A DNA stretch of 64,000 nucleotides from Ardenticatena maritima (GCF_001306175.1 NZ_LGKN01000004.1:248001-312000); one strand, 5' to 3'. Shown: positions 37,425 to 56,940, counted from the first letter of the stretch. Translations and numbers: made by a program. The notes: generated from the sequence alone by a model not told the origin.

Positions 37425-39944
<2,520 letters not shown>

Positions 39945-39975: not shown

Positions 39976-40004
39976 ACAGAGCAAAGGGGCACGAGAAAAA
40001 TACA
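39976..40004 (-). promoter_or_regulatory. Two-block upstream element, copy at GH9
   Basis: Minus strand TGTATTTTT, 14 bp, CTCTGT. Candidate promoter read by the nearby ECF-like sigma factor. The first block is exactly the loop of a 10-bp hairpin (39986-40014), so it may double as the terminator of the upstream gene. Confidence 0.5.
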
Positions 40005-40014
40005 CTCGTGCCCC
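39986..40014 (-). terminator. Hairpin after the GH12-GH48-GH6 gene
   Basis: Perfect 10-bp stem GGGGCACGAG/CTCGTGCCCC with a 9-base loop, 42 bp after the stop; only TTTGC follows, so termination strength is uncertain. Confidence 0.55.
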
Positions 40015-40055: not shown

Positions 40056-43000
40056 TTATGGCTGAATGGGCGGGTAGGCGTTTTGCACCAGGATTTCAAA
40101 ATGCTCAGGGAACCAGCGTCCGGCGTGTGGGGCGTTGGGCAATGCCCCCGTTGGGTACGCCGAGTTGTACAGGTTCTGCCCGTTGGGGTCGCACATGCGG
40201 TCGAACTTCTTGTTCGGGTCAACGGGGTCAACAATGCCCGGTTCGCTCACGCCATCCGATTCACCGGGCGGCTTGATCCACACATAGGCGTCAATTCCCG
40301 GCACGGGGCTGGCTTGCGGGCGCTCGCCAATCCCGCTTGCCTGGTTGCACCAATTGCCGCGGTGGTAGCGGCGGTCCACGCGCGACTCATCCACATACAC
40401 GTCCACGTTGGTGGTATTGGTGCTTGGCGCGGTCGGACGGCTGCGCCCATAACTCGACCCACCCCACCCATTGCGGCTGGTGTCAATCAGCATGCCGATA
40501 CTGGACGGGAGGCCTTGCTGGATAAACGCCTGACGCAACGCCTGCGCAAAGTCCAGTTCATCGAAGTAGGGATTCCATTCGTAAAACTTTGCCGAGCGCA
40601 CCGGTTGACCGCCAATGGTAAGGCTGGAATCCGGCAAATACGGCTCTTCCAGCGGCGTGTAGTTCGATACGTTGGTGACGAAGCCGTCAATGCTGTTGAA
40701 CCCATCCGCTGTGCCTTGCACCACCTGCGTGTAGAGCGTGACAGCCTTTTGGAAGTTGTCGCTCCAGCCCAACCAGCCTGAATGCGCAATGTCGAGGTAG
40801 ATGTACACATTCGGCAACTGGTGGAGCGTGTCAATGGCGTACTGAATCCCCTGCACATAGGCGCCCGTCGCGTCGGCTTCGGCACATGCCGGCACAGAGA
40901 GATTCGTCACCAAGTTGGGCAACGAGTCCGGCTCGATAATGGCCACAATGCGCAAATCGCGATACTGCGGTTGGGCGAGGATGTTATAAATCACGTCAAT
41001 GTAGTCGGTTTTGTAGCGTTGCAGCCCATTTTCCGCGATGAGCAGTTCACCATTCGAGGCGTCCGCAGCACAGTCGCGGTTGGGCAAATCGTAAATCACG
41101 ATGGTGATGAGGTTCGCCCCTTGCGCCAGGGCTTCATCCAGATGCCCCTGCAAGCCACGCCCTTCGGTAATCGCGCCGATACGGTCCAGCCACACAGCGG
41201 TTGAATACTGCGCGACTTTGGCCATTTTCTGCCCAAGCACGCCCCCCGTCTGCTGCGCCTGGTTCAGCACATTCGCCGCCCAATCCGGGTTGACGTACCA
41301 GGTCGCGCCGACAAAGGGGTTATCCAGGTGCGTGCCGGGGATAGGCGTAGGCGGCACACTGGTGGGTGTCGGTGTCGCCGGCGGCTGTGTAGGCGTAGGC
41401 GTGGCCGGCGGTTGGGTGGGCGTGGGTGTGGGCGGGGTCGGCGTGCCTGCCGCGCCATTGCACGGCTGCCCGTTCAGCGTGAAATCGGTCGGTGTGGGGT
41501 TCGCGCCGCTCCAATTGAGGTTGAAGCCGAACGTAACCGAGCCGGCCGGCGCAATGGTGCCATTCCACCCAACATCGCTCGCCGTCACAACTGCGCCGCT
41601 TTGTGAAAGCGTGACGTTCCACCCGTTCGTAATCTGCTGGTTGCCGGGGAAGGTCCATGTCAGCGTCCAACCGTTGATGGTGGCGCTCCCCGTGTTCGTG
41701 ATGGTTACGTCCACCGTCGCCCCGCCCGACCACTCGTTGCGCACCACGTAGTCCACGCGGCAGGCGGTTTCGCCGACGGGCGGCGGCGTGGGCGTGGCTG
41801 GTGCTGGCGTGGGTGTCGCCGGCGGCTGTGTGGGCGTGGGTGTGGCCGGCGGTTGGGTCGGCGTGGGTGTGGCTGGTGCAGGCGTCGGTGTGGGGGTCGG
41901 TGATGCCGGTGGTTGGGTGGGCGTGGGTGTGGGCGGGGTCGGCGTGCCTGCCGCGCCATTGCACGGCTGCCCGTTCAGCGTGAAATCGGTCGGTGTGGGG
42001 TTCGCGCCGCTCCAATTGAGGTTGAAGCCGAACGTAACCGAGCCGGCCGGCGCAATGGTGCCATTCCACCCAACATCGCTCGCCGTCACAACTGCGCCGC
42101 TTTGTGAAAGCGTGACGTTCCACCCGTTCGTAATCTGTTGGTTACCGGGGAAGGTCCATGTCAGCGTCCAACCGTTGATGGTGGCGCTCCCCGTGTTCGT
42201 GATGGTCACGTCCACCGTCGCCCCGCCCGACCACTCGTTGCGCACCACGTAGTCCACGCGGCAGGCGGTTTCGCCGGCGGGCGGCGGCGTGGGCGTGGCT
42301 GGTGCTGGCGTGGGTGTCGCCGGCGGCTGTGTGGGCGTGGGCGTGGCCAGCGGTTGGGTCGGCGTGGGTGTGGCTGGTGCAGGCGTCGGTGTGGGAACCG
42401 GCGTGATGCCGCCGCCGAAGAATTCGCCATAGAGCGCATTGGCCAACGCCACATCAACCTGCGCCCAGAAACGGTGATAGCGGAATTCGGGCGCTGGGCC
42501 GCCGTTCAAGTAGGCTTCGACCTTCGGCCAATCGGGGTCTTGCGTGTACTTGGGGCGCAACCCCAAGAACGTCACACCCGGCTGAATTGTAGCGCCCTGC
42601 GCATTGGTGCCACTCCACCCTGTGGGGATAAAGACTTCATCACCAAAGCGGATGTAGTCTTCGCGCACTTCGGGCACCGAAACGCCCTTGTCGTCGCGGT
42701 ACAACGTCCACATGCGGTCCAGCAATTCTTTTGCCAGCAATTGCGACTCTGTGTCGCCCGTTGCCGCGGCGTAGTAGATCAGCGCCTTTGCCAGCGCCGC
42801 CGTGACGCCCACGTCTTTGTTGTAGGCGACAACGGTGACGTGCAAGTTGTTATTCGGCCCCGGATTGGTCGGGTTCCACGGGTCTGGTTGCCCACTCCAT
42901 TCAAGCGTCACGGGGATTTCATAATCGCCGTTGGGCAACAGATGCACAACACTCTTGATCCACGCCACCCATTTGTCCATGACTTCGCCGGCACGCTGGT

Positions 43001-45167
43001 CGCCGGTCAGGTAGTAGTACTCCGCCACGCGCTCCATAGACCAGGCTTGCCACCCAAACCAGGTGTTGCTACCGGGGTCGTGATAGACCGGATGATCGTC
43101 ATACGCGAGACCATAGAATTCGGAGACACCCGCCGGGCGTGGGTCGTAGCGTCCGTTCCAGGAGTTTGTCGCACCACCGGCAATCGCCCCTTCCGCCGAT
43201 TGGAGCCAGCGGTAGAATTCGATTTGGCGGTCCATGCTCACCGCCCAATCTGTTGCGCCGTTGGGCGAAGCCGGCTTGAACGCAGGCACCTGGCTGAGCA
43301 CCCATGCCGCGACGGGGTTTTGGTAGCCAAAGTGCACATGGCTGGAACCGATACGCCACGCCCAACCACCGCCGCTCACAGGACCGCCCCACGAGTAGTA
43401 CCACGAGAGCAGGTAGTGCGCGCTGTCATAGCCGGTTCCCGCCGGGCAATTGGGGCTTTCGCACCCAATCGTCTTGAAGTACTTGTCAAAGAAAGCGTAG
43501 CGCAGGTAGTCGCCCATTTTGGCGGCTTTGGGCACCAGGCTATCCACCAAAGGCGAACCGCCCTGCGCGTCAGCCCAAACTTTCGCCCAATACATGGCTT
43601 GAATGGCGCGGGCGTCGGCGTCAGGTGCGTTGGTGTAGCGGTACTGCTGGGCATACTGCCAGCCCTGCGGTTGTTCAATGAAGAGGTCGAGGAAGCCATT
43701 GGGGCCGCCCCAGTTGAAAGCTTCCCACGAGGGATGCGGAACCGTTTCCCACACCGATTCCTCTGCACCGCGCTGAAAGGTGTTGATGTACGAAGGCGCG
43801 GTGGTACCATCGCCACGTTGCCCGTAGCCGTACCAGTTATCAACGTCCAGCAACCAGTGCATGCCGTAGATGTCCGACGTGCCATACGTTTGGGCGAGTT
43901 CGTTGCAGATGGGGTCGTCCCCAACGCTGACATTCGGGTCAAGCGGCACAGGGTAATCGCTGGGGGCGTCCCCTTCGGGCGCGTACGAGGCTTTGTAGGC
44001 GCAATTGTTGCTGGGCTGGTCTTGGTGCGAGGGGATGATGTACGTCTCCATGTTGTTCCACGCATCCGCCAGATACGACCAATCCCCCGTCACGCGGCCG
44101 TACATGGCTTCCAGCCAGAGCCAGTAGCTGTACGCTTCGCTGGTGGTTTCATGCCCGTAGTCGGGCGCTTCGACAATCAGCGTTTCGACGGAGTGATAGG
44201 GAATGCCTTGCGGGCTGAAATACCCATTCGCGGGGTCGTGAATCTCATTCCACAATTCCAGGAAGCGGGCGACGTATTCGTTCGTCGGCGGTGCTCCGCC
44301 GCCATTCCCCGGCGGTGTGGCGGTTTGTGTTGGAGCGACTGTGGGCGTCGCCGTCGGCTGTGCGCCCCCACCGCCGTTGACGGTGACCGAGAACCCACTA
44401 CTTGCCAAACCAGTGCCCCCCTGCCAAATCTCAAAGCCGGCTTCGATGGCGTGCAAATACCAGGACGATTGCACATATCCACGCTGGATGGCATCGTTGA
44501 TGAACGCCAAAATGTCGAGGTTGGTGACACTCTGCGTCGGCGTGGTACGACGATACGCAATGTAGTGCCAATCAATGGGCGTGTACCAGACTTCCCACGT
44601 CGCGCCGTCAATCGTCACCGTGTCAACAACCGCCCCCGCCGGCTGGACGCCGCCATTCCAATCCAGCCAAATCATGATTTCAGCGCCGCCGTTGTAGCCA
44701 TTCGTGGTATCAAGCGAGGGACTGAGCCAAATATCGTACGCCACATTCCAGGCGCCGCTGTTGACAGTGGTGATTGACCAATCGCTGGTGACACTGCTCA
44801 ATTGCGCCACCGGCACCGACAACCCACTGTTTTGCGTGCAGTTGCCCCAATGGCACCCCTGCACAATCGAAGGATAGGCGGCGGGTGCGCCATTTGTGGG
44901 GTTGTTGTGCGCCGATTGCGTCACAACAAAATCACCTGTGGCATCATTGACTTCGATACACTGGGCTGTATCGGCGCCCCACACATTGTTTTGCACGTAG
45001 AATGTGCCGCCGGCCGCCCAGGTGTAGCCCCATTTTTCGCACAATTGAATGGTTGCCCCCTGGACAGGCGCAACAGCACCAAACGCAATAAAAGACAGGA
45101 AAACGATCAGGAGAAGGTGGATGAGCGGGGACGGTTGGCGTATTGGACACCAGTTGCTTTGCGACAT
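40056..45167 (-). CDS. Trimodular secreted cellulase GH12-GH48-CBM2-CBM2-GH6
   Basis: 1703-aa exported enzyme with three catalytic domains. Signal peptide about 1-37. GH12 endoglucanase 38-265: nucleophile E163 (AEIMIWLDW) and acid/base E246 (FEIWQGG). GH48 reducing-end cellobiohydrolase 297-918, with the acid-bearing motif [14 protein letters not shown] at 332-345. Pro/Thr linkers separate CBM2 967-1069 and CBM2 1134-1236. GH6 domain 1279-1703: D1360/D1365 (YDLPNRD), proton donor candidate D1414 (EPDS) and D1638 (KPPGESDG), most like non-reducing-end cellobiohydrolases. One chain therefore joins endo, reducing-end exo and non-reducing-end exo activity around two cellulose anchors. All catalytic residues checked are intact. 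Confidence 0.95.
41441..42442. repeat. 501-bp tandem duplication (CBM2 plus linker)
   Basis: The segment starting at 41441 recurs 501 bp later at 41942, covering a whole CBM2 and most of the adjoining linker. By eye only about six bases differ over some 480, so the duplication is recent or kept uniform by gene conversion. It is in frame (167 codons). Confidence 0.9.
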
Positions 45168-45233
45168 GCAGCACCTCCAATCTCATCTCATTCAGCTCGA
45201 CACTAGAACAACCTGTCACGTGGCCACGCAAAC

Positions 45234-45295: not shown

Positions 45296-45335
45296 CGAAA
45301 GAGAACCGCCCCGCAAGGTGTCTCTTGCGGGGCGG
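45296..45335 (-). terminator. Terminator after the GH5 gene
   Basis: Perfect 12-bp stem CCGCCCCGCAAG/CTTGCGGGGCGG with 6-base loop, followed on the minus strand by TTCTCTTT. Confidence 0.82.
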
Positions 45336-45358
45336 CGTCAATCTACCGGGCAATGCAA

Positions 45359-47011
45359 TTACCGGCAGGGCTGCCCGTTGAGCGTGAAGGTGGTCGGCGT
45401 CGGGTTCGCGCCGTTCCAATTGAGGTTGAAGCCAAACGTGACCGAGCCAGCCGGCGCAATCGTGCCGTTCCAGGCGGCGTTGGTGACTGTCACGCTCGCA
45501 CCGGTCTGCGTGTAGGCGCCGTTCCAGAGGTGCGCAATCTGCTGGTTGCCGGCGAAGGTCCATGCCAGCGTCCAGCCAGTGATGGTGCTGGCGCCGGTGT
45601 TCGTGATGGTCACGTCCACCGTCGCGCCGCCAGGCCACTCGTTGCGCACCACGTAGTCCACGCGGCAGGCGGTTTCGCCGGCGGGCGGCGTGGGCGTCGG
45701 CGGCACAGGGGTCGGCGTGGGCGGGACGGGCGTGGGGGTGGGTGTTGATGGCGGCAGCGTCGGCGTGGGCGTCCCCGGTTCAGGTGAAGGCGTCGCCGGC
45801 GGCGTGACGCTCCCTTGCCCAATAAGCGGGTACTGAATCGTTTCCAGCAAAGCCTGTTTTTCAGCGTGCACAGTCGTCCAATCATCCAGCAAAATGCCGC
45901 CGGTATCGCCCGAATTCGGGTTGAGCGACCAGAATGTCCAACTCAGCCCTTTCTGCTGGATATAGGGCAAAAACTTTTGCAGCCATTGCTTGTCGCTCTC
46001 ATCCACGTAGCGCGTGCCAAATTCACCAATCAGCAGGGGGGCTATGTTCTCGTTATAAATGTAGCCCCAGTAATGGTCCCACACCGCCGGCAAATTGTCA
46101 GGGTAGTTGGGGTCCGAGAACCACTCTTGTGGGAACACCGAGGCGGGGTATTCGTGTGGCGAATAGACCAGACGGTTGGGCACATTCAAGCGCACAGGAT
46201 ACTCGCGCACGCCCAGCAAATTGCCACCCCACCAGGTGCAATCAGCGTCTTTCCAGGGGTCGTTCTCACCACCAGGCCCATAGCATTCCACGCCTTCAAC
46301 GATAATCAGCAAATCGGGGTTGATCGCCAAAATGGCGTTTCCAGCACGCTCCGCCGCCAGCCGCCAATCACGCGCTGGGTCGCCACAGCCCCAACAAGCA
46401 TCGTCGTGCGGCTCGTTGCGCAAGTCAACCGCAACCACGGTATCGTTTCCGGCATAGCGGCGCACCAGCATTTCCCAGTCGGCGATCCAGCGACTCTCAG
46501 GGTAATCGGCGGTGTACCAAAGCCCACCTTCTTGCGCACTCGCCCCCGCATTGGAGCGGTGGTTATCCAAAATCACCTTCAAGCCCCGTTGTCCGGCGCC
46601 TTCGATAATCTTGTCCATAATTTCCAGCGAGGTCAGTCCCACCAAATCGGGGTTTTTGGAGTAATCAATCCCCGTCGGCATGGTGCCCGGATTCAGCACC
46701 TCATTGGAAAAAGGCAAGCGAATACTGTTGTAGCCCAGCGCTTTGATTTGATCGAGCACCTCTTCCCAATTGCGCGACCACAAGCCATGCACCACGTTGT
46801 TGCCCGTCTCAAAGCCAAACCAGTTGACCCCGCTAAACGCCACCACATTGCCATTGGCGTCGCAAATTTGGTTGCCGCATGTATGCAAATAACCGCTGGT
46901 TGCCGCTTTGGCAGACGGCAGCGGTGCCGAAGCCGACCAGCCCAGAAGCCAGGCGCTCCATACCACTGCCATCACGACCATACAGGCGTAGCGCCATGAA
47001 AAAGACCGCAT
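45359..47011 (-). CDS. Secreted GH5 endoglucanase with CBM2
   Basis: 550 aa from ATG 47011 (GAGGGGG upstream; the longer in-frame extension has no signal peptide layout). Signal peptide about 1-37 (cut near AKAA). GH5 TIM barrel about 38-395 with acid/base E200 (VAVDLRNEPHDD) and nucleophile E330 (LLIGEFGTRY). Pro/Thr linker 403-443, CBM2 447-550 with bracketing Cys. Expected to cut internal beta-1,4 bonds of cellulose. It has its own terminator and upstream element, so it is transcribed separately from the protease gene before it. Confidence 0.95.
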   Translation of the reverse strand: MRSFSWRYACMVVMAVVWSAWLLGWSASAPLPSAKAATSGYLHTCGNQICDANGNVVAFSGVNWFGFETGNNVVHGLWSRNWEEVLDQIKALGYNSIRLPFSNEVLNPGTMPTGIDYSKNPDLVGLTSLEIMDKIIEGAGQRGLKVILDNHRSNAGASAQEGGLWYTADYPESRWIADWEMLVRRYAGNDTVVAVDLRNEPHDDACWGCGDPARDWRLAAERAGNAILAINPDLLIIVEGVECYGPGGENDPWKDADCTWWGGNLLGVREYPVRLNVPNRLVYSPHEYPASVFPQEWFSDPNYPDNLPAVWDHYWGYIYNENIAPLLIGEFGTRYVDESDKQWLQKFLPYIQQKGLSWTFWSLNPNSGDTGGILLDDWTTVHAEKQALLETIQYPLIGQGSVTPPATPSPEPGTPTPTLPPSTPTPTPVPPTPTPVPPTPTPPAGETACRVDYVVRNEWPGGATVDVTITNTGASTITGWTLAWTFAGNQQIAHLWNGAYTQTGASVTVTNAAWNGTIAPAGSVTFGFNLNWNGANPTPTTFTLNGQPCR

Positions 47012-47046
47012 ATTGTTCCCCCTCTTTGTTCTTGTGTTGTTGCTGT

Positions 47047-47060
47047 GCAACGGCCGTTGC
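47047..47060. promoter_or_regulatory. 14-bp palindrome at the GH5 promoter (operator candidate)
   Basis: GCAACGGCCGTTGC, lying immediately downstream of a TATAAG box at 47063-47068 and so over the expected transcription start, a classic repressor position. Confidence 0.4.
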
Positions 47061-47067
47061 CGCTTAT

Positions 47068-47096
47068 ACAGAAGAAGGTTTTTCCGAAAAAATACA
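47068..47096 (-). promoter_or_regulatory. Two-block upstream element, copy at GH5
   Basis: Minus strand TGTATTTTT, 14 bp, TTCTGT, then ATAAG. About 57 bp upstream of the GH5 start. Confidence 0.5.
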
Positions 47097-47108
47097 TCAT
47101 TCTGTAAA

Positions 47109-47139
47109 AGAAAAACGGCCCGTTTTGCAACGGACCGTT
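47109..47139 (-). terminator. Terminator after the subtilase gene
   Basis: 11-bp stem AACGGTCCGTT/AACGGGCCGTT (one G-T pair), loop of 4, T run on the minus strand. Confidence 0.85.
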
Positions 47140-47160
47140 TCATTGAAAGACGAGTTATGT

Positions 47161-49161
47161 TTACTGCGAGCAAGGCGCTCCATTCAAGGAAAGCCCGGCG
47201 GGCTCAAATCCGGCCGCATTTCCTTGAAGCGTAAATCCAAAGGAGACATACCCGCCGGCAGGTACAACATGGTTCCAATCTGCATTGGTGACCACAACAT
47301 GCCCCCCATTTTGCATAAACGAACCGTTCCACATGTTGGTGATGAGCGGGACAGACGCCCCCCAATCCCATTCAAGCGTCCACCCATCCACATCAGCCGG
47401 CTGGTTGTTGGTCACCACGGCGTTCACCGTTGCACCACCATCCCAACTTGATTCAACCGTGAATGTGACGGTGCAGGCATTCGCGTTTGTCGGCTGCGCC
47501 GGTTCTTGCCCCCACACCAGACGCCCGTCATAGTACACGGTGACACGTTCCCACTCCTGCCACGTCACCACATCCGCCCCAAAGGAGTAATCGTTGGTCT
47601 CATCCTGGGCGCTCCATTCAGCATCATGCACATTCACCTGAATGAACTCACCGTCGCCAACAGCCTTGCCGCCATAGAGCAAGCCAGCCCCATCTGTAAA
47701 GCCAACCTCAACAAACGTGTGTCCATCTGTTGTTTGCCCGGTTGCAACCGTCACATTCTCATTGCCCTGGGCGGCATAGTCCACTACGGCCTGCAAAGCA
47801 TGCGCCGTTTCCGGCGTCAACCAGTAGCGAATGCGTAGTGCACTGTATGGAATCGTGCCGCCATCATTCACAAGACGAAACTGTGGGACAATCGTGGTGG
47901 TATCCCAAGCGGTATCTCCACGGCGATACTGCAACCGCACAGCGATATCCGTTTCGCCGCGCGCCTGCAAGAGGGCGTCATACAGGTCAATGCGCTTTGC
48001 TTCAGGGTGCTGCACCAGCGGACGCCCTGTCTGGCGCAGGGTGTTCACGACACACGCCACATCACACCCCGGCACGGAACGCAAAAGCGCCGCCGCACCA
48101 GCCGCAAAAGGCGTTGCCATGGAATTGCCGCTCCACACGGCATAGCCGCCATTGTAGTATGCCGAGAAAATCTCTCGCCCAGGGGCGTACACCTCCGCGA
48201 CGCCATTCTGGAACGTCGAAAAGTCGGTGAGCAGGTCGTAGCGATCGGTAGCCCCAACAGAGACCACGCCATCATACAGTGCGGGATACCCCAGCACGTT
48301 GACGCCGCCCGCCGCTACAATCAGAACACCGTGCGCCTGGGCATATGCGACGGCCGCTTGCAAAGCCGGCGCATCTTCAGGCCCATGCCCGCTCAAATTG
48401 ATGATGTCGGCGCCATGATCAACCGCGTAGAGAATGCCTTGAATAGCGTCGAAGTACGAGCCGCGACCATCGCTATCGAAAATGCGCACAGGCATGATAC
48501 GTGCATCAGGAGCGACCATCGCCACAATGCCGGCCACATGCGTACCATGTCCTGCGGCTTCATCAATCGCCCCATCCCCATCCTGGTCAATGCCATTGGG
48601 GACATCGTCCGGCAGAGAGTCCCCATCAATCACATCGTAGCCCGGCACAAGCTTGTCCACCAGCAAGGGGTGATCCAGGTCTACGCCGGTATCCAGCACC
48701 GCGACCACAACGCCCTGCCCGGTTGCCAGCTGGTGCGCTTTGTCCAAACGCACCACGCCACGCGCCCACTGGTCGCCATATTCTGCGGGAACACCGTCAA
48801 AGCCAATGTAGCGAGGCTGTGCCGTAAGCGGCGCACCATCAAAACCAATGTACCGCGGCTGACTATCAAGGAGCACATCACGGCTCACGCTGAGCACACG
48901 CGCATCCGACGCAAGTTGTGCGCCCACATCGGCACTCGCCTGAAGCGCAACCAATGCAAGGGCTGGCACTTCACCCACCACCGCAACACCATACTCAGCC
49001 GCCAAGCCTGCCCCATCGACACCCGGCGCAAGGGTCACTAGCCAGGTGTATGTCTCAGGTGGCGCATCAGCCAAAACGTGCGCGGGTCGCCCCCATACGC
49101 ATACGCCCAGCACAAGCACAACCAAGCCCAACAAACGCCCCCAGACCCGTCGAGAGACCAT
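47161..49161 (-). CDS. Secreted subtilisin-like protease (S8) with CBM3 and CBM2 modules
   Basis: 666 aa from ATG 49161 (AGGAGGG upstream). Signal peptide about 1-32, an I9-like propeptide about 38-97, then the motif QPRYIGFDG twice (101-109, 115-123). S8 domain about 130-400: D157 (VAVLDTG), H208 (GHGTHVAG), S347 (GNSMATPFAAG), and a Ca-binding type loop DQDGDGAIDE. The oxyanion Asn appears as AAGGVN (N288), two residues later than the usual AAGN. Residues 405-553 look like a CBM3 and 561-664 like a CBM2. The cellulose-binding tail would hold the protease on plant fibres or near the cellulases. Third gene of the 172-aa/CHAT operon. Confidence 0.9.
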   Translation of the reverse strand: MVSRRVWGRLLGLVVLVLGVCVWGRPAHVLADAPPETYTWLVTLAPGVDGAGLAAEYGVAVVGEVPALALVALQASADVGAQLASDARVLSVSRDVLLDSQPRYIGFDGAPLTAQPRYIGFDGVPAEYGDQWARGVVRLDKAHQLATGQGVVVAVLDTGVDLDHPLLVDKLVPGYDVIDGDSLPDDVPNGIDQDGDGAIDEAAGHGTHVAGIVAMVAPDARIMPVRIFDSDGRGSYFDAIQGILYAVDHGADIINLSGHGPEDAPALQAAVAYAQAHGVLIVAAGGVNVLGYPALYDGVVSVGATDRYDLLTDFSTFQNGVAEVYAPGREIFSAYYNGGYAVWSGNSMATPFAAGAAALLRSVPGCDVACVVNTLRQTGRPLVQHPEAKRIDLYDALLQARGETDIAVRLQYRRGDTAWDTTTIVPQFRLVNDGGTIPYSALRIRYWLTPETAHALQAVVDYAAQGNENVTVATGQTTDGHTFVEVGFTDGAGLLYGGKAVGDGEFIQVNVHDAEWSAQDETNDYSFGADVVTWQEWERVTVYYDGRLVWGQEPAQPTNANACTVTFTVESSWDGGATVNAVVTNNQPADVDGWTLEWDWGASVPLITNMWNGSFMQNGGHVVVTNADWNHVVPAGGYVSFGFTLQGNAAGFEPAGLSLNGAPCSQ

Positions 49162-49203
49162 ACAAAACCCTCCTTCGCTCCTCACACAAGACATTGCAGC
49201 CTC

Positions 49204-52137
49204 TTATTGAGGCCATTGAGGTCGATAAAACGGATTCCCCATGACAACGAAGGGCGCCCAGTAATAGGGGTGTGGATACCACTCACGGAGAACATGCTGA
49301 GCATGCCGCAAAGCACTGGCAACAGGCATTCCCGCCGCTAACGCCGCATAAAATTGCTTCATCAACTTGGCTGTCGAAATATCATCAACCATCCAGAGGC
49401 TTACAACAACTGAACGCGCCCCCGCCGCAAAGAAGCCGCGGCATAACCCCACCAACTCATCACCAACCGCCACATGCGCGCGTCCCGTTTCACAGGCGCT
49501 CAAGGTCACCAAAGGCGCCATGGTCTGCATTTCGTACACATCGCTGACAAAAAACCAGCCATCTGCCAACTTCAAGGCCGAAAAGAAAGGATTGTCCGAG
49601 CGAAAAACAGCATGCGTGGCCAGGTGCAAGCACGCCGGCGTTTGCGTCAACTCACGCAGCACATTGAGCGTGGCCGTATCGCCCACATACGCCGTTGCCT
49701 CGGGAAAAATGTGCCGCACAAAATTGACTTCGGCCTCAACATAGGGAACGGAGGCGTCGTGTATGCCGAGAAGAAGCGGAGGTTGTTCCACATGCGTGGG
49801 GAAGTCCTGAACCGTGTGGCAAAACAGGGTTGCACTTGGCGCATACGTCACAATATGTTGATCCAGGAGATACGTTTCACCATCCGGCGTCAAAGCGTGG
49901 AAGGGGATATAATGGAAAAGACCGTGCGGTACAATCACCAGGGTTTCAATGCCATCAAGCCATGTTTCAATAGGGGCTATCAGCGCCGCATACAATGTCC
50001 GCAAATCACGATGAACCGCTTCCCATAAAATGTGCTGATACCGTTGCCGATACTCGGTACCATACCCGAATTTATTGAAAGTAAACCGCAAATGCTGCAA
50101 CGTTTCTTTGAGCGTGTCCATGTCAACGGAGAGCGAACGGGAGACAACCTGCTCATGGGTGATGCCAAACAGAATAACCTCACCCTCGCGGCTTATGTAA
50201 AATTCAAGGAGCGCACTCTTTGGGGGTAATGCTTGCTGAACGTCTTCGACGCGCACCGTCCAAACCGGATTGCGCGGCGTTGCCGCCATTTCGGGCACAT
50301 GCCAATGTTTCAGCAAGCGCGCCAAACGCGCTTCACGGTCGGCAATCGCCGACATCAAGGTCGAGACCGGTTGGGCTTCGCGCATGCCGCTTTCCATCAC
50401 CGTTTCGTAAAAGCGGTTGTAGTACCAATGCAACTCGCGCTTGAGGTCATCCATTTGCCGCCAGAGCGTCTTTTCATGGGGCGAAAGGTGTTTGTGCTGG
50501 CGCACCCGTTTTTCAAGCGAAAGGCGTGTCAACAAATCCAATAACGCACGCGATTTTGCCCGCTCAATACCCGAAAACGCTTCACGCTGCGCCTGCGGCG
50601 TTTGTTCTTCCAGGCAAAACTGCACAAATTTGTCGTACACGGGCAATTTGTCTTGCAAAAACGCCATTTGATACATCTCACTCTGCAAGCCCGCGTACAT
50701 TTGCTCGATATGCGCAATGGCTTGTTTGTATGCCCGTTCCGCCTGGCGGCGTTGTCCCCGCCGATGCGCCACCTGCCCCAACCCAAACGCTCCACGATAC
50801 GCCACGGGAAACACGCGCGCCATATCAACACGCTGAAAATGCGCCTGCGCTTCGTCAAGGTCATTGTCCGCTAGCGCCATTTCTCCCAGCAGCACATCAC
50901 ACTCAGCAACGCGCCCAACCACACCATAGTCGGCAAACCGCTCACGAGCCGCCAAGACATACGTCCGAGCGTCTTCCCAAGCCCCCTTGCGCCACAGCAA
51001 ATAGGCGCGATGCAAGTCGGCAACCGCGCTCCACAGCACATTGCCCTGCTCACTGAACAGGGCTTGCGCCTGGTCGAGCGCCTGCAATGCGGCACACACA
51101 TCACGCAGATGCGCCACCGCAATCGCTTCGTTCAACCACAAGCGCGCCGCCTCCCAGTTCATGGCATGCGCTTCAAAACAAGCGCGCGCCGCTTGCGCCG
51201 TCTCTAACGCTTCATGCCACAGATTGAGCGCCAGATAACAATCGCTGCGATGCAAATCCACATAGGCGACTTCCACAGGCAACGCTTGTTCCTCAAAGAC
51301 AGAGCGCGCTTGCTGCAACAAGCGGAGCGCCGACTGGTATTGCCCCTGGGCGAAGGCCAGATACCCCATGTTCACATCAATCTGCGCGACCACCCGCGAT
51401 TCGCCGGTATCCTCAAAATAGCGGCGGGCTTCACGCAGGAGCGCAACAGCTTCACGAAAGGCGTTCAATTCGGCGTGCACATTGGCATCGTTGATATTAA
51501 CAATCATCAACCGACGCCAATCCCCCAACGCTCGGAAGGCTTCGCGCGCACGGGCATAACACTGACGCGCCTCCTCAAAACGCCCCAAACGCGCGAGCAC
51601 ATTCCCCCGATTCGAGAGCACCTTGGCAAGCCGCGCCTGATCGCCCACACGCACAAACACCTGCTCTGCTTGCGCAGAATAGTGTAAAGCCTGCTCATAG
51701 TGGCCGAGGTACAAAAGTGCATCAACATACCCCACCGTCACCCGCGCAACCGAGGCGTCGTCTCCGCGCTGGCGGTGAAGGGCAATCGCTGTCTCAAAGC
51801 ACCCCACCGCCTGCTCATATTTCCCCAAATGGCGGAAGGCTTTGGCGCGCGTATAGGCGCTTTCTGCACGTACAGCGTCATCCTGCCAGACGCGCGCGCA
51901 GGCATCGAGAACATCGGCAAGTTGCAACGTGAGGTGTGGATTGAGGCGCTTTGTGCGCTCGACGGCGTCGTGTATCTTCGTCAACAACGCTTCATCCGGC
52001 TGGGGAACGTGGGTGCGCAACCACGCACACCGCGATTCCAAATCGGCTAAATCGAGGAGCGTTTGCACGGTGGGGTCTTCTATTTCGATATGGTCTTCTG
52101 GATTCATCGCCACTCGGATACCATCAACACTCAGCAC
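49204..52137 (-). CDS. TPR-CHAT caspase-like protease
   Basis: 977 aa, no signal peptide, so cytosolic. Residues about 60-480 are tetratricopeptide repeats (Ala/Tyr-rich helical pairs such as HLGKYEQAVGCFETAIALH), the middle is helical, and the C-terminal about 300 residues form a CHAT domain. The caspase-type dyad is H842 (LHLATHA) and C882 (TLSACETG), both intact. CHAT proteins are clan CD peptidases switched on by their TPR partner surface. Start taken at GTG 52137 (GAAAGAG upstream); ATG 52107 is an alternative. Lies 31 bp after the 172-aa gene and 42 bp before the CBM-subtilase. Confidence 0.92.
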   Translation of the reverse strand: MLSVDGIRVAMNPEDHIEIEDPTVQTLLDLADLESRCAWLRTHVPQPDEALLTKIHDAVERTKRLNPHLTLQLADVLDACARVWQDDAVRAESAYTRAKAFRHLGKYEQAVGCFETAIALHRQRGDDASVARVTVGYVDALLYLGHYEQALHYSAQAEQVFVRVGDQARLAKVLSNRGNVLARLGRFEEARQCYARAREAFRALGDWRRLMIVNINDANVHAELNAFREAVALLREARRYFEDTGESRVVAQIDVNMGYLAFAQGQYQSALRLLQQARSVFEEQALPVEVAYVDLHRSDCYLALNLWHEALETAQAARACFEAHAMNWEAARLWLNEAIAVAHLRDVCAALQALDQAQALFSEQGNVLWSAVADLHRAYLLWRKGAWEDARTYVLAARERFADYGVVGRVAECDVLLGEMALADNDLDEAQAHFQRVDMARVFPVAYRGAFGLGQVAHRRGQRRQAERAYKQAIAHIEQMYAGLQSEMYQMAFLQDKLPVYDKFVQFCLEEQTPQAQREAFSGIERAKSRALLDLLTRLSLEKRVRQHKHLSPHEKTLWRQMDDLKRELHWYYNRFYETVMESGMREAQPVSTLMSAIADREARLARLLKHWHVPEMAATPRNPVWTVRVEDVQQALPPKSALLEFYISREGEVILFGITHEQVVSRSLSVDMDTLKETLQHLRFTFNKFGYGTEYRQRYQHILWEAVHRDLRTLYAALIAPIETWLDGIETLVIVPHGLFHYIPFHALTPDGETYLLDQHIVTYAPSATLFCHTVQDFPTHVEQPPLLLGIHDASVPYVEAEVNFVRHIFPEATAYVGDTATLNVLRELTQTPACLHLATHAVFRSDNPFFSALKLADGWFFVSDVYEMQTMAPLVTLSACETGRAHVAVGDELVGLCRGFFAAGARSVVVSLWMVDDISTAKLMKQFYAALAAGMPVASALRHAQHVLREWYPHPYYWAPFVVMGNPFYRPQWPQ

Positions 52138-53472: not shown

Positions 53473-53599
53473 CCACTTGAACAGCCCAATGTGGGCGTTC
53501 GCTCGCTTCCCACTCCCGCATCTCTTTGTGTCCGCAGAAAACCTTACCAACGTTTTTTCAACCTGTAAATGCGCTTTTTCTCCAATTTTTTCGGGGCGC

Positions 53600-53643
53600 T
53601 TGCAGGGCTTTTCCCCCTCGCTCAAGGGGCGAAAGCCCCGCAA
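53600..53643. repeat. Imperfect long hairpin between the divergent sigma and STAND-SARP genes
   Basis: TTGC..GGGCTTT..CCCCT pairs with AGGGG..AAAGCCC..GCAA. It fills part of a 322-bp divergent intergenic region that otherwise holds the two promoters and nothing else I recognise. Confidence 0.4.
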
Positions 53644-53650
53644 AACCCAC

Positions 53651-53679
53651 TTGCCACAGCCCAAAGTCTGCACTATCCT
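53651..53679 (+). promoter_or_regulatory. Putative promoter of the STAND-SARP gene
   Basis: TTGCCA, 17 bp, TATCCT; the start codon follows only about 30 bases later without a clear ribosome site. Confidence 0.5.
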
Positions 53680-53709
53680 CTTCACACACAAACCCACACC
53701 CAGCCAATC

Positions 53710-56700
53710 ATGAGCGAACTCTGGCTCATCCACAGCAAACTGAAGCCGCCGCGCTTTCGCGCCCCGCTGCTCACACGCGAGGCACTCTTCGACCGCCTGG
53801 AAGAAGCCCGCCGCCACACGCTCACCATCGTGCAAGCCGGCGCAGGCGAAGGCAAAAGCACAACCCTGGCGCTCTTCGTCACGCAGTCCACGCTCCCCTT
53901 TGCCTGGTACACACTCGGACCAGAAGACGCCGACCCGCTCGTTTTCTGGTCGCACTTGGCGGCGGCGCTCGATAGCGTGCGTCCGGGTATCCAAGCAACC
54001 TTGCACCCCCTGCTTGTTCGTGCCCGTCAGGGTGAATTCCCGTGGGGGCTGATTGCCGAAGCCCTTGCCAACGCCGCCGAACAGCCCCCCACCGACTGCC
54101 TGCTCGTGCTGGACGACATTCATCACCTCGACGACCATCCCGAAACAGTGCGCACCTTTGAGCGCTGGGTGAGCCTTCTGCCGCCGACACTGCACCTCAT
54201 CATCACCACCCGCCGACGCCTCACCTGGCCAACCCTCACGCGCTTTCTGGCGCAACGCCGCGCATGGCTCATCACCGAATCCGAATTGCGCCTGACCAGC
54301 GCCGACATTGCCGCGCTGTTTGCGCACCACGGCATCCGCCTGCGCCCCGACCAGTGCGAGCAACTTTACAACGCCACCGAAGGCTGGATCATGCCGCTGC
54401 AACTGCTGGCCGCCCACCTGCGCGGCGCCACCGCCGAGCGCGTTGATGAAGCGCTCCCCAACCTTGCGGCATCGCTCGATATGCTGGGCGACTTTCTCAT
54501 GCACACGCTCATCGCCCCACTCCCCGCCTCGCTCCAACAATTTTTGTTCGACACCGCCATTTTGCGCGTGCTGGAACCCGCCGCCTGCGACGCCGTGCGG
54601 CGTCGGCGTGATAGCACCGCCCTTCTGGCGCAACTCGCCGATATCGGGCTCAACCTGGTGCAGATTGACGACCAGACCTATCGCCACCACCACCTTGTCC
54701 ACGAATTTTTACAGCAAGAAGCCCAACGCGACCCCGTGCGCTGGCGGCTCTTGCACCGCCGCGCCGCCGCCTATTTTGCCCAGCATGGGCAGGCCGAAGA
54801 AAGCATAGACCACCTGCTTCAGGCGGAAGATTACGAAGCCGCCGCCCACGGCATGAGCATCGTTGCGCCCCGTTTGCTGGCGGAAGGGCGTTTCGCCCAC
54901 CTGCGCCGCTGGCTGAACGCCCTGCCCGACGCCATTCGCGACGCCTGGCCCGACCTGCTCCTCATCCAGGGCGACGTGGCGCGCTTCACCAGCCGCTACG
55001 ACGACGCCCTCGCGGCATACCGCCGCGCCGAAACCTGCTACCTCGCCCGCGACGACGCCATCGGGCAAAGCCAAGCGCTCAAAAGCCAGGCGCTCGTTTA
55101 CATTGACACGGTTCACCCCGCCCCCGCCGAACAACTGTTGAAGCAAGCCTTGCGCGTTTTACGCCGCGAAGCCCCCACCGAAAGCGCCGACCTGCTGCAA
55201 CTGCTGGCGGAAAACGCCACCAACCGCGGCCGCCCCAACCTGGGCGCGCGCTGGTACGCCGCTGCACGCCGCCTGGGCGCTCCCCCCAACACCGAACTTG
55301 AAGCCCGCATCCACCTGCGCAGCGGCCGCCTCGACGCCTGCCGCACCATTCTGACAGACCAGCACGCCGCCACCCCTCACCGTCCCGCCCGCACCCACCG
55401 CGAACCGAGCCTCTTGCTCGCGTTCGTAGACGTTCTGCAAGGGCGCACCACATCCGCACGCCAACGCGCCGCCGACGGGCTTGCGCTGGCGCGTCGGCTG
55501 CAATCCCCATTCACCGAATCGGTCGCGCATATGCGGCTGGGGCACGCCTGGCAACTGCCCCCGCTGGCGGACATCGCGCGCGCGCAACGCCATTACGAGC
55601 ACGCCATCCGCCTCAACCGCGAACTGGCAATCCTGCGGGGCGAAGCCGAACCGCTTTTTGGGCTGGCATTCTTGCACGCGCACCACGGCGCCCCCGCCAC
55701 CGCGCTGGAAGCCGCCGACCGCGCTATTCGCCTGGCACTGCGTGCCGGCGATGAATGGGTAGCCGCCATCGGGCACTTGGCGCGCGGCATCACCCACGCC
55801 CTGCACACCACCCCCGAAGACGCCGCCAGCGCCTTACACGAAGCCCTGCACCGTTTTGAAACCTGCCACGATATGTTTGGCGCCGCCATGGCGCACCTCT
55901 GGATGGCATGGACAGCCTATCACACCCACGACCCCGACACGTTCGCCGAACATGCGCCGCACTGGCTTGCCTACGCTATCACCGCCCCCGAACACCTGCA
56001 CGCCGCCACGCTCTTTGGCCTGCGCGACCCCCAAGCCTACATCCCTCTGCTCATCCATGCGCGCGACCACTTGCTGCCCCCGGCGGCTGAGCGTGCACGC
56101 GCCCTTTTGCGCCAAACAGGGCTCCCCGCCGACATCGCACATCATCCGGGCTACACGCTGCATGTGCGGCTCTTTGGTCCGTTCGAGGTCTGCCGCGGCA
56201 AGCAGCCGGTTCCCGCCGACGCCTGGCGACGCGCCAAAGCGCGCCACCTGTTGGGACTGCTCGCCCTGCACCCCACCCCCTTGCAACGCGAAGTCCTGTT
56301 CGAGCACCTCTGGCCTGACACGCCACCCGATAACGCCGAAACGCAATTGAAAGTCACGTTGAACGCCCTCGCCAACGCCATTGAACCGGAACGGCCACGC
56401 CGGGCTGGCACATTTTTCATTCACCGTGAAGGAAACACCATCGCCATCCAGCGCGACGCCGTCGTCTGCGACGTGTGGCTGTTTCAAGACCTCATCGCCC
56501 GCGCCGAAGCCGAACCCGAAGCGGAACGCGCCATCGAGTTGCTCGAACAAGCCCTGGCGCTCTATCGCGGCGACGTGTTGCCCGAATGCCGCTACGAAGA
56601 ATGGGCGTGGCCGCATATCGAGCGGCTGCGCCTGCAAGCGGTACGCGCCGCGGAATGGCTGGCACGCCTCTACCTGACACGGGGCGACGCCGAAGCGGCC

Positions 56701-56940
56701 ATTGCCAGCGCCGAACGTGCGCTGGCGCTGGATACCTGTTGGGAACCCGCCTATCGCATTGCCATGCGCGCCTGCGCCATGTTGCACCGTCGCCCGCACA
56801 TTGTGCGGCTATACCGCCGCTGCCGGGAAGCGTTGCAACGTGAGTTAGGGGTTGCGCCCATGCCGGAAACAACCGCGCTCTATGAGGCATTGGTGGGATA
56901 TGCACATGATGCCAACAGGGGAGGCGTGGATACGCCGTAA
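53710..56940 (+). CDS. MalT-like STAND ATPase with TPR region and C-terminal SARP domain
   Basis: 1076 aa from ATG 53710 (MSELWLIHSKLKPPR matches the usual MalT-type N-terminus). Nucleotide-binding motif VQAGAGEGKSTTL near residue 46 and Walker B LLVLDDIHHL near 133, followed by a winged-helix and long TPR-like array. Instead of the LuxR helix-turn-helix of MalT, the last 260 residues are a SARP module: winged helix (LHVRLFGPFEVCRG) plus BTAD ending in CREALQRELGVAP. Ligand-gated activator by analogy; the target may be the divergent sigma/cellulose island. Confidence 0.9.
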   Translation: MSELWLIHSKLKPPRFRAPLLTREALFDRLEEARRHTLTIVQAGAGEGKSTTLALFVTQSTLPFAWYTLGPEDADPLVFWSHLAAALDSVRPGIQATLHPLLVRARQGEFPWGLIAEALANAAEQPPTDCLLVLDDIHHLDDHPETVRTFERWVSLLPPTLHLIITTRRRLTWPTLTRFLAQRRAWLITESELRLTSADIAALFAHHGIRLRPDQCEQLYNATEGWIMPLQLLAAHLRGATAERVDEALPNLAASLDMLGDFLMHTLIAPLPASLQQFLFDTAILRVLEPAACDAVRRRRDSTALLAQLADIGLNLVQIDDQTYRHHHLVHEFLQQEAQRDPVRWRLLHRRAAAYFAQHGQAEESIDHLLQAEDYEAAAHGMSIVAPRLLAEGRFAHLRRWLNALPDAIRDAWPDLLLIQGDVARFTSRYDDALAAYRRAETCYLARDDAIGQSQALKSQALVYIDTVHPAPAEQLLKQALRVLRREAPTESADLLQLLAENATNRGRPNLGARWYAAARRLGAPPNTELEARIHLRSGRLDACRTILTDQHAATPHRPARTHREPSLLLAFVDVLQGRTTSARQRAADGLALARRLQSPFTESVAHMRLGHAWQLPPLADIARAQRHYEHAIRLNRELAILRGEAEPLFGLAFLHAHHGAPATALEAADRAIRLALRAGDEWVAAIGHLARGITHALHTTPEDAASALHEALHRFETCHDMFGAAMAHLWMAWTAYHTHDPDTFAEHAPHWLAYAITAPEHLHAATLFGLRDPQAYIPLLIHARDHLLPPAAERARALLRQTGLPADIAHHPGYTLHVRLFGPFEVCRGKQPVPADAWRRAKARHLLGLLALHPTPLQREVLFEHLWPDTPPDNAETQLKVTLNALANAIEPERPRRAGTFFIHREGNTIAIQRDAVVCDVWLFQDLIARAEAEPEAERAIELLEQALALYRGDVLPECRYEEWAWPHIERLRLQAVRAAEWLARLYLTRGDAEAAIASAERALALDTCWEPAYRIAMRACAMLHRRPHIVRLYRRCREALQRELGVAPMPETTALYEALVGYAHDANRGGVDTP

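Follow-up and report, generated by a model that had tools for sequence, protein, structure and literature searches.

A probable secreted cellulase of Ardenticatena maritima joins GH12, GH48 and GH6 catalytic domains in a single chain

The breakdown of crystalline cellulose classically requires an endoglucanase plus exoglucanases for both chain ends, which act as mixtures or within cellulosomes. Several cellulase domains can also occur in a single protein. In the genus Caldicellulosiruptor, Cdan_2053 of C. danielii is a tri-catalytic cellulase (GH10-CBM3-GH12-GH48) for which synergistic hydrolysis of microcrystalline cellulose was reported, and a GH12-GH5-CBM3x3-GH48 chain has been published as well (PMC7142884, PMC6892212). 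Related chains are CelA of C. bescii (GH9-CBM3x3-GH48), GuxA of Acidothermus cellulolyticus (GH6-CBM3-GH12-CBM2; PMC9181691), and MDG of Thermococcus sp. (GH5-GH12-GH12-CBM2-CBM2; PMC12265866). Here we describe a gene of Ardenticatena maritima, a thermophilic member of the Chloroflexota, whose product has the order GH12-GH48-CBM2-CBM2-GH6. The gene lies at 40056..45167 on the minus strand of a 64,000-nucleotide stretch of the genome (GCF_001306175.1 NZ_LGKN01000004.1:248001-312000), which we call the window. With a probability of about 0.72, we consider it to be a genuine one-gene, secreted, tri-catalytic cellulase, in which CBM2 modules act as a tether for an endoglucanase and for a pair of cellobiohydrolases with opposite polarity, and which was put together by domain shuffling.

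Cdan_2053 resembles the A. maritima protein in that it comes from a thermophile, has three catalytic domains in one chain, and has GH12 directly before GH48. However, the Caldicellulosiruptor chains lack GH6, have CBM3 in place of CBM2, have GH48 at the C terminus, and have GH10 or GH5 as the third catalytic domain. CelA also arranges an endoglucanase and GH48 around cellulose-binding modules, and its combination of GH48, a second catalytic domain, and binding modules in one chain is found in A. maritima; its structure (4L0G) is the closest solved GH48 structure by sequence. But CelA has just two catalytic domains, with GH9 instead of GH12, no GH6, and CBM3 modules. Its GH9-CBM3-GH48 order is not found in A. 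maritima, where GH9 and CBM3 are absent from the chain and a separate neighboring gene encodes GH9-CBM3-CBM2. GuxA is likewise a secreted thermophilic chain with a GH6 exoglucanase and a GH12 domain, but it lacks GH48, its domain order is reversed and its modules differ, and its GH12 is mainly a xylanase and only 48% identical to that of A. maritima (PMC9181691). MDG is thermophilic and has three catalytic domains and two CBM2 modules, but it is archaeal and all three of its catalytic domains are endoglucanases, with no exoglucanase (PMC12265866).

The sequence-only reading of this stretch had proposed a single chain of 1703 amino acids with GH12, GH48, and GH6 domains and two CBM2 modules. 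An intact open reading frame and matches to Pfam confirm this, and the proposed layout holds; the strand was the sole point omitted. The frame runs from 45167 to 40056, from an ATG through a stop, with 1703 codons and zero internal stops. A Shine-Dalgarno-like GGAGGT (45173..45178, on the minus strand like all features of this gene) has the ATG 5 nucleotides downstream. In a Pfam profile search, all of the domain matches exceeded the curated cut-offs, and given their order, both CBM2 modules lie between GH48 and GH6. An N-terminal hydrophobic stretch, recognized by eye, is a putative Sec-type signal peptide (amino acids 1-37; 45057..45167), and the protein is probably secreted. No dockerin was among the Pfam matches to the chain, so it does not class as a cellulosomal enzyme.

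The GH12 domain (amino acids 38-264; 44376..45056) matches its profile over amino acids 56-264 (120.4 bits versus a cut-off of 27, E = 1.5e-34) and aligns across its length to Cel12A of Rhodothermus marinus, with the nucleophile E163 and the acid/base E246 in the GGAE and GFE motifs. This domain is 59% identical to the R. marinus endoglucanase (2BW8), which places it nearer to true endoglucanases than the GH12 of GuxA, and we predict that it has endo-1,4-glucanase activity. A linker rich in proline, threonine, and glycine (amino acids 265-297; 44277..44375), which is not part of the CBM2 repeat, leads to the GH48 domain (amino acids 298-917; 42417..44276). GH48 matches positions 1-619 of the 619-position profile (1020.7 bits, E = 0). 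In an end-to-end alignment with the GH48 domain of CelA and with Cel48F, the residues E333, E344, and D516 are conserved; we take these to be the active-site positions, as in Cel48F and CelA.

The two CBM2 modules (copy a: amino acids 969-1069, 41961..42263; copy b: amino acids 1136-1236, 41460..41762) are joined by a P/T-rich linker (41763..41960), and another P/T-rich linker precedes GH6 (41328..41459). From N to C terminus, the linkers are about 33, 51, 66, and 44 residues long. Both modules have the features of the CBM2a type, with three surface tryptophans (W979, W1016, and W1034; W1146, W1183, and W1201) and a pair of cysteines near the ends (C969/C1069; C1136/C1236). (The three exposed tryptophans of CBM2a are cellulose-binding residues.) The GH6 domain (amino acids 1281-1703; 40059..41327) matches its profile over amino acids 1308-1642 (333.5 bits, E = 2.4e-99) and aligns end to end with HmCel6A, an active cellobiohydrolase that was studied as an isolated catalytic domain (PMC8940973). 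The catalytic acid D1414 corresponds to the position that was mutated to alanine in PDB 6K55, and D1360 and D1365 are conserved. A GH6 domain of A. maritima was previously given as "76% similar" to HmCel6A (PMC8940973); we measured 76-77% identity.

Overall, the alignments with solved structures for GH12, GH48, and GH6 show that all of the catalytic residues checked are present, as the sequence-only reading had stated. Its assignment of the three families is supported, as are its readings of GH48 as a reducing-end cellobiohydrolase and of GH6 as a probable non-reducing-end cellobiohydrolase (77% identity of GH6 to HmCel6A). By its profile match, catalytic aspartate, and end-to-end alignment, the GH6 domain is a cellobiohydrolase of the CBH II type, and we predict that it acts processively from the non-reducing end.

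The nearest domains that we found are in a genome of the same class, G918 (77% identity for GH12, 77% for GH6, and 86% for GH48). In G918, they are encoded by two adjoining genes on the plus strand: P0002, a GH12-CBM2-GH6 protein of 919 amino acids (L125:6371-9130), and a GH48-CBM2 protein of 868 amino acids (L125:9355-11961). P0002 shares the N-to-C order of GH12, CBM2, and GH6 with the A. maritima chain but has one CBM2 rather than two, and GH48 is in the separate gene. The GH6 domain of P0002 is identical to HmCel6A (PDB 6K52) at 427 of 427 residues, so the crystallized HmCel6A natively forms the C-terminal end of a chain that holds two enzymes. Another genome of the class, G1062, encodes GH12-GH48-CBM2 in one frame, with the contig ending inside the CBM2 (L075:613-3756, plus strand). 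The one GH6 detected in this genome is a C-terminal piece that lies at the beginning of a different contig (L143:3-359, plus strand). Together, these pieces may represent a second instance of the tri-catalytic gene, interrupted by contig ends; alternatively, they may be two separate genes. Neither GH48 nor GH6 is present in five closer relatives that we searched (four from the same family and one from the same genus), so the cluster was either gained or repeatedly lost.

We also searched for GH48 in a 400-genome sample of the phylum (23 positive), a 396-genome sample of the class (7 positive), 150 genomes from the class of G150 (12 positive), 396 genomes from the phylum of Lentzea (10 positive), and 398 genomes from the phylum of Paenibacillus (14 positive); these samples overlap in part. 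No other GH48 chain examined from these samples contains GH6 (two of the three long chains of G1560 and the chains of G926 and Paenibacillus were outside this comparison). The long GH48 chains mostly pair GH48 with GH9, GH10, or GH74-like domains: GH9-CBM3-CBM2-CBM2-GH48 is found in G150, G1112, and G1098, and Caldicellulosiruptor-like chains have GH9, GH10, or a beta-propeller as the partner. Loci from Lentzea match residues 33-1237; in L002, GH48 and GH12 are separate neighboring genes and not a fusion. Among plasmids, 27 records matched and none covered 80% of the chain.

Three other architectures came to light. G150 has a matching pair of bifunctional chains separated by a few kb, namely GH9-CBM2-CBM2-GH6 (L144:1750-6129, plus strand) and GH9-CBM3-CBM2-CBM2-GH48 (L053:4992-9998, plus strand), so that each exoglucanase is partnered with GH9 rather than fused to the other. 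G034 has a CBM2-GH6-GH6 protein of 1129 amino acids with two nearly identical GH6 domains (L145:1860-5249, minus strand). G1301 has a GH48 chain of 1733 amino acids with fn3, CBM3, and Ig-like domains and no second catalytic domain by Pfam (L117:319-5520, minus strand).

Phylogenetic trees bear on how the chain arose. In the GH48 tree, A. maritima, G918, and G1062 form a clade (support 100/99) in which A. maritima and G918 are sisters (100/100). A. maritima also pairs with G918 in the GH12 tree (95/94), where moderate support (87/90) places G1062 outside a group made up of these two and Rhodothermus. This could reflect an ancient GH12-GH48 fusion followed by replacement or fast evolution of GH12 in G1062, or else two separate fusion events. 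The CBM2 modules behave differently: within A. maritima, those of the cellulase genes share 77-100% identity, and within G918 they are 98% identical, but between these two genomes the figure is only 62-68%, while the catalytic domains, unlike the CBM2s, track each other between species. That the CBM2s are more alike within than between genomes points to concerted evolution, in which CBM2 tracts are homogenized within each genome by recombination or conversion. Recombination between CBM2s is also a plausible route for joining neighboring genes. The chain would have arisen by domain shuffling within cellulase clusters, from the parts that G918 carries as neighboring genes, GH12-CBM2-GH6 and GH48-CBM2.

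We propose that the two CBM2a-type modules would anchor the protein to crystalline cellulose, that the N-terminal GH12 would nick chains internally, and that GH48 would then free cellobiose at reducing ends and GH6 at non-reducing ends. The flexible P/T-rich linkers, which we estimate to reach some tens of nanometers, would keep the local concentration of the three enzymes on one fibril high and give endo-exo-exo synergy without a cellulosome. The activity of each domain and their synergy are predicted from sequence. Several points weigh against this proposal. The sequence-only reading had suggested that a bound enzyme could attack a cellulose chain at both ends as well as in the middle, but GH48 and GH6 run in opposite directions, and the tether may hinder both or limit their processivity. 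The two are therefore unlikely to make long processive runs at the same time along one chain; short runs on neighboring chains of one fibril seem more plausible. On its own, GuxA converted no more than 6% of the glucan in Avicel, which was attributed to poor nicking by its GH12 (PMC9181691), and because this tethered GH12 gave little endo-cutting, synergy from covalent linkage should not be assumed. Furthermore, the open-access papers on A. maritima that we found do not mention cellulose use, and a neighboring cellulose-binding protease may cut the linkers.

Processing of the linkers by this protease is the main functional rival, although we judge it unlikely. The secreted chain would be a precursor that is cut at its P/T-rich linkers, perhaps by an S8 subtilase with CBM3 and CBM2 modules (677 amino acids; 47161..49194, minus strand) whose gene is two places upstream, within the same cellulase cluster, and whose D/H/S triad motifs are intact. 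The working pieces would be GH12, GH48-CBM2, and CBM2-GH6, and the fusion would mainly equalize their production and export. The linkers are exposed and, judging by composition, unstructured, and G918 has GH48-CBM2 as a separate protein. However, we identified no cleavage site, and the subtilase could equally target plant or microbial protein; we consider it a possible linker-processing or cellulose-bound protease. P/T linkers in cellulases are also commonly glycosylated and resist proteases.

It is similarly improbable that one catalytic domain, most likely GH12, is weak on cellulose and acts on a different plant polysaccharide, for example xylan or mixed-linkage glucan, as holds for the GH12 of GuxA (PMC9181691). 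The chain would then be a two-exoglucanase machine, with endo-cutting left to the GH5-CBM2 and GH9-CBM3-CBM2 cellulases of the cluster, encoded on either side (604-amino-acid open reading frame, 45359..47173; 813 amino acids, 37425..39866; both minus strand). But the A. maritima GH12 is more similar to the R. marinus endoglucanase than to the GuxA domain (59% vs. 48%). If the chain is a tri-catalytic cellulase, the GH5 and GH9 neighbors could add internal cuts.

The sequence-only reading had raised the objection that the assembly wrongly joined separate genes at the repeated CBM2 modules. The assembly was made from short reads (PMC4653789), the two tandem copies have identical protein sequences, and G918 carries the same parts as two genes. 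At the DNA level, a 501-nucleotide unit of CBM2 plus linker is repeated, with six differences across the CBM2 and nearest linker and a longest exact repeat of 227 nucleotides. We nevertheless reject a chimera as very improbable, given this repeat length and the following: all five CBM2 copies in the genome fall within this cluster, whose contig is 705 kb long, so there are no spare CBM2 ends with other flanks to misjoin; the genome has just one GH48 and one GH6 (counted in an assembly of 12 contigs, 3.56 Mb, and 98.6% complete); the GH12-GH48 junction is a linker that is not made of CBM2 repeat; and G1062 independently has GH12-GH48-CBM2 while G918 has GH12 and GH6 in one chain. The number of CBM2 copies could be miscounted, yet GH48 and GH6 would stay joined.

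The tri-catalytic gene may be transcribed as a unit by itself, because there are terminator-like hairpins on both sides. One hairpin, 3' of the stop (GGGGCACGAG-TGTATTTTT-CTCGTGCCCC; 39986..40014, minus strand), was read from the sequence and has a loop that exceeds the length limit of the terminator scan; the other is GC-rich, lies between this gene and the GH5 gene (45305..45336, minus strand), and is a consensus match only. Matches to sigma-70-type promoters show no excess over chance. Across the window, the actinobacterial CelR box has no match with up to 2 mismatches, and no Rfam family matched. In more than one genome of the Chloroflexota, TPR-CHAT proteins and BTAD-domain regulators adjoin cellulase clusters (window 49204-52137, minus strand, and 53569-56940, plus strand; L053:1497-4919, minus strand; L115:102-2738, plus strand) and are possible cellulase regulators. 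A GH9 cellulase of A. maritima had already appeared as a database match in a published study (PMC6731012).

The sequence-only reading was not aware of any characterized GH12-GH48-GH6 enzyme. This part stands, as the open-access full-text papers contained no such architecture, with just the Caldicellulosiruptor GH10-CBM3-GH12-GH48 protein surfacing; but that reading had overlooked the tri-catalytic chains with GH12 and GH48, the archaeal MDG, and the pairing of GH6 with GH12 in GuxA. Because these combinations are already published, only the presence of GH48 and GH6 together is new. GH48 and GH6 in one chain were absent from the open-access papers and sampled genomes, and as this scope does not include CAZy or UniProt, an undescribed equivalent may exist. 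The odds seem slightly in favor of this being the first natural single-chain set of an endoglucanase, GH48, and GH6, present in a single lineage of thermophilic Chloroflexota, or perhaps in two, and formed through recombination of CBM2 tracts.

If so, A. maritima would encode a minimal cellulose-degrading set in one gene. This thermophilic chain with all three enzymes is a candidate one-gene cellulase, and it would allow a test of whether tethering exoglucanases that run in opposite directions helps or hinders. HmCel6A turns out to be one piece of a longer chain with two enzymes. More broadly, the locus illustrates how such enzymes may be built: the catalytic domains show parallel relationships between species, while the CBM2 tracts are homogenized within each genome.

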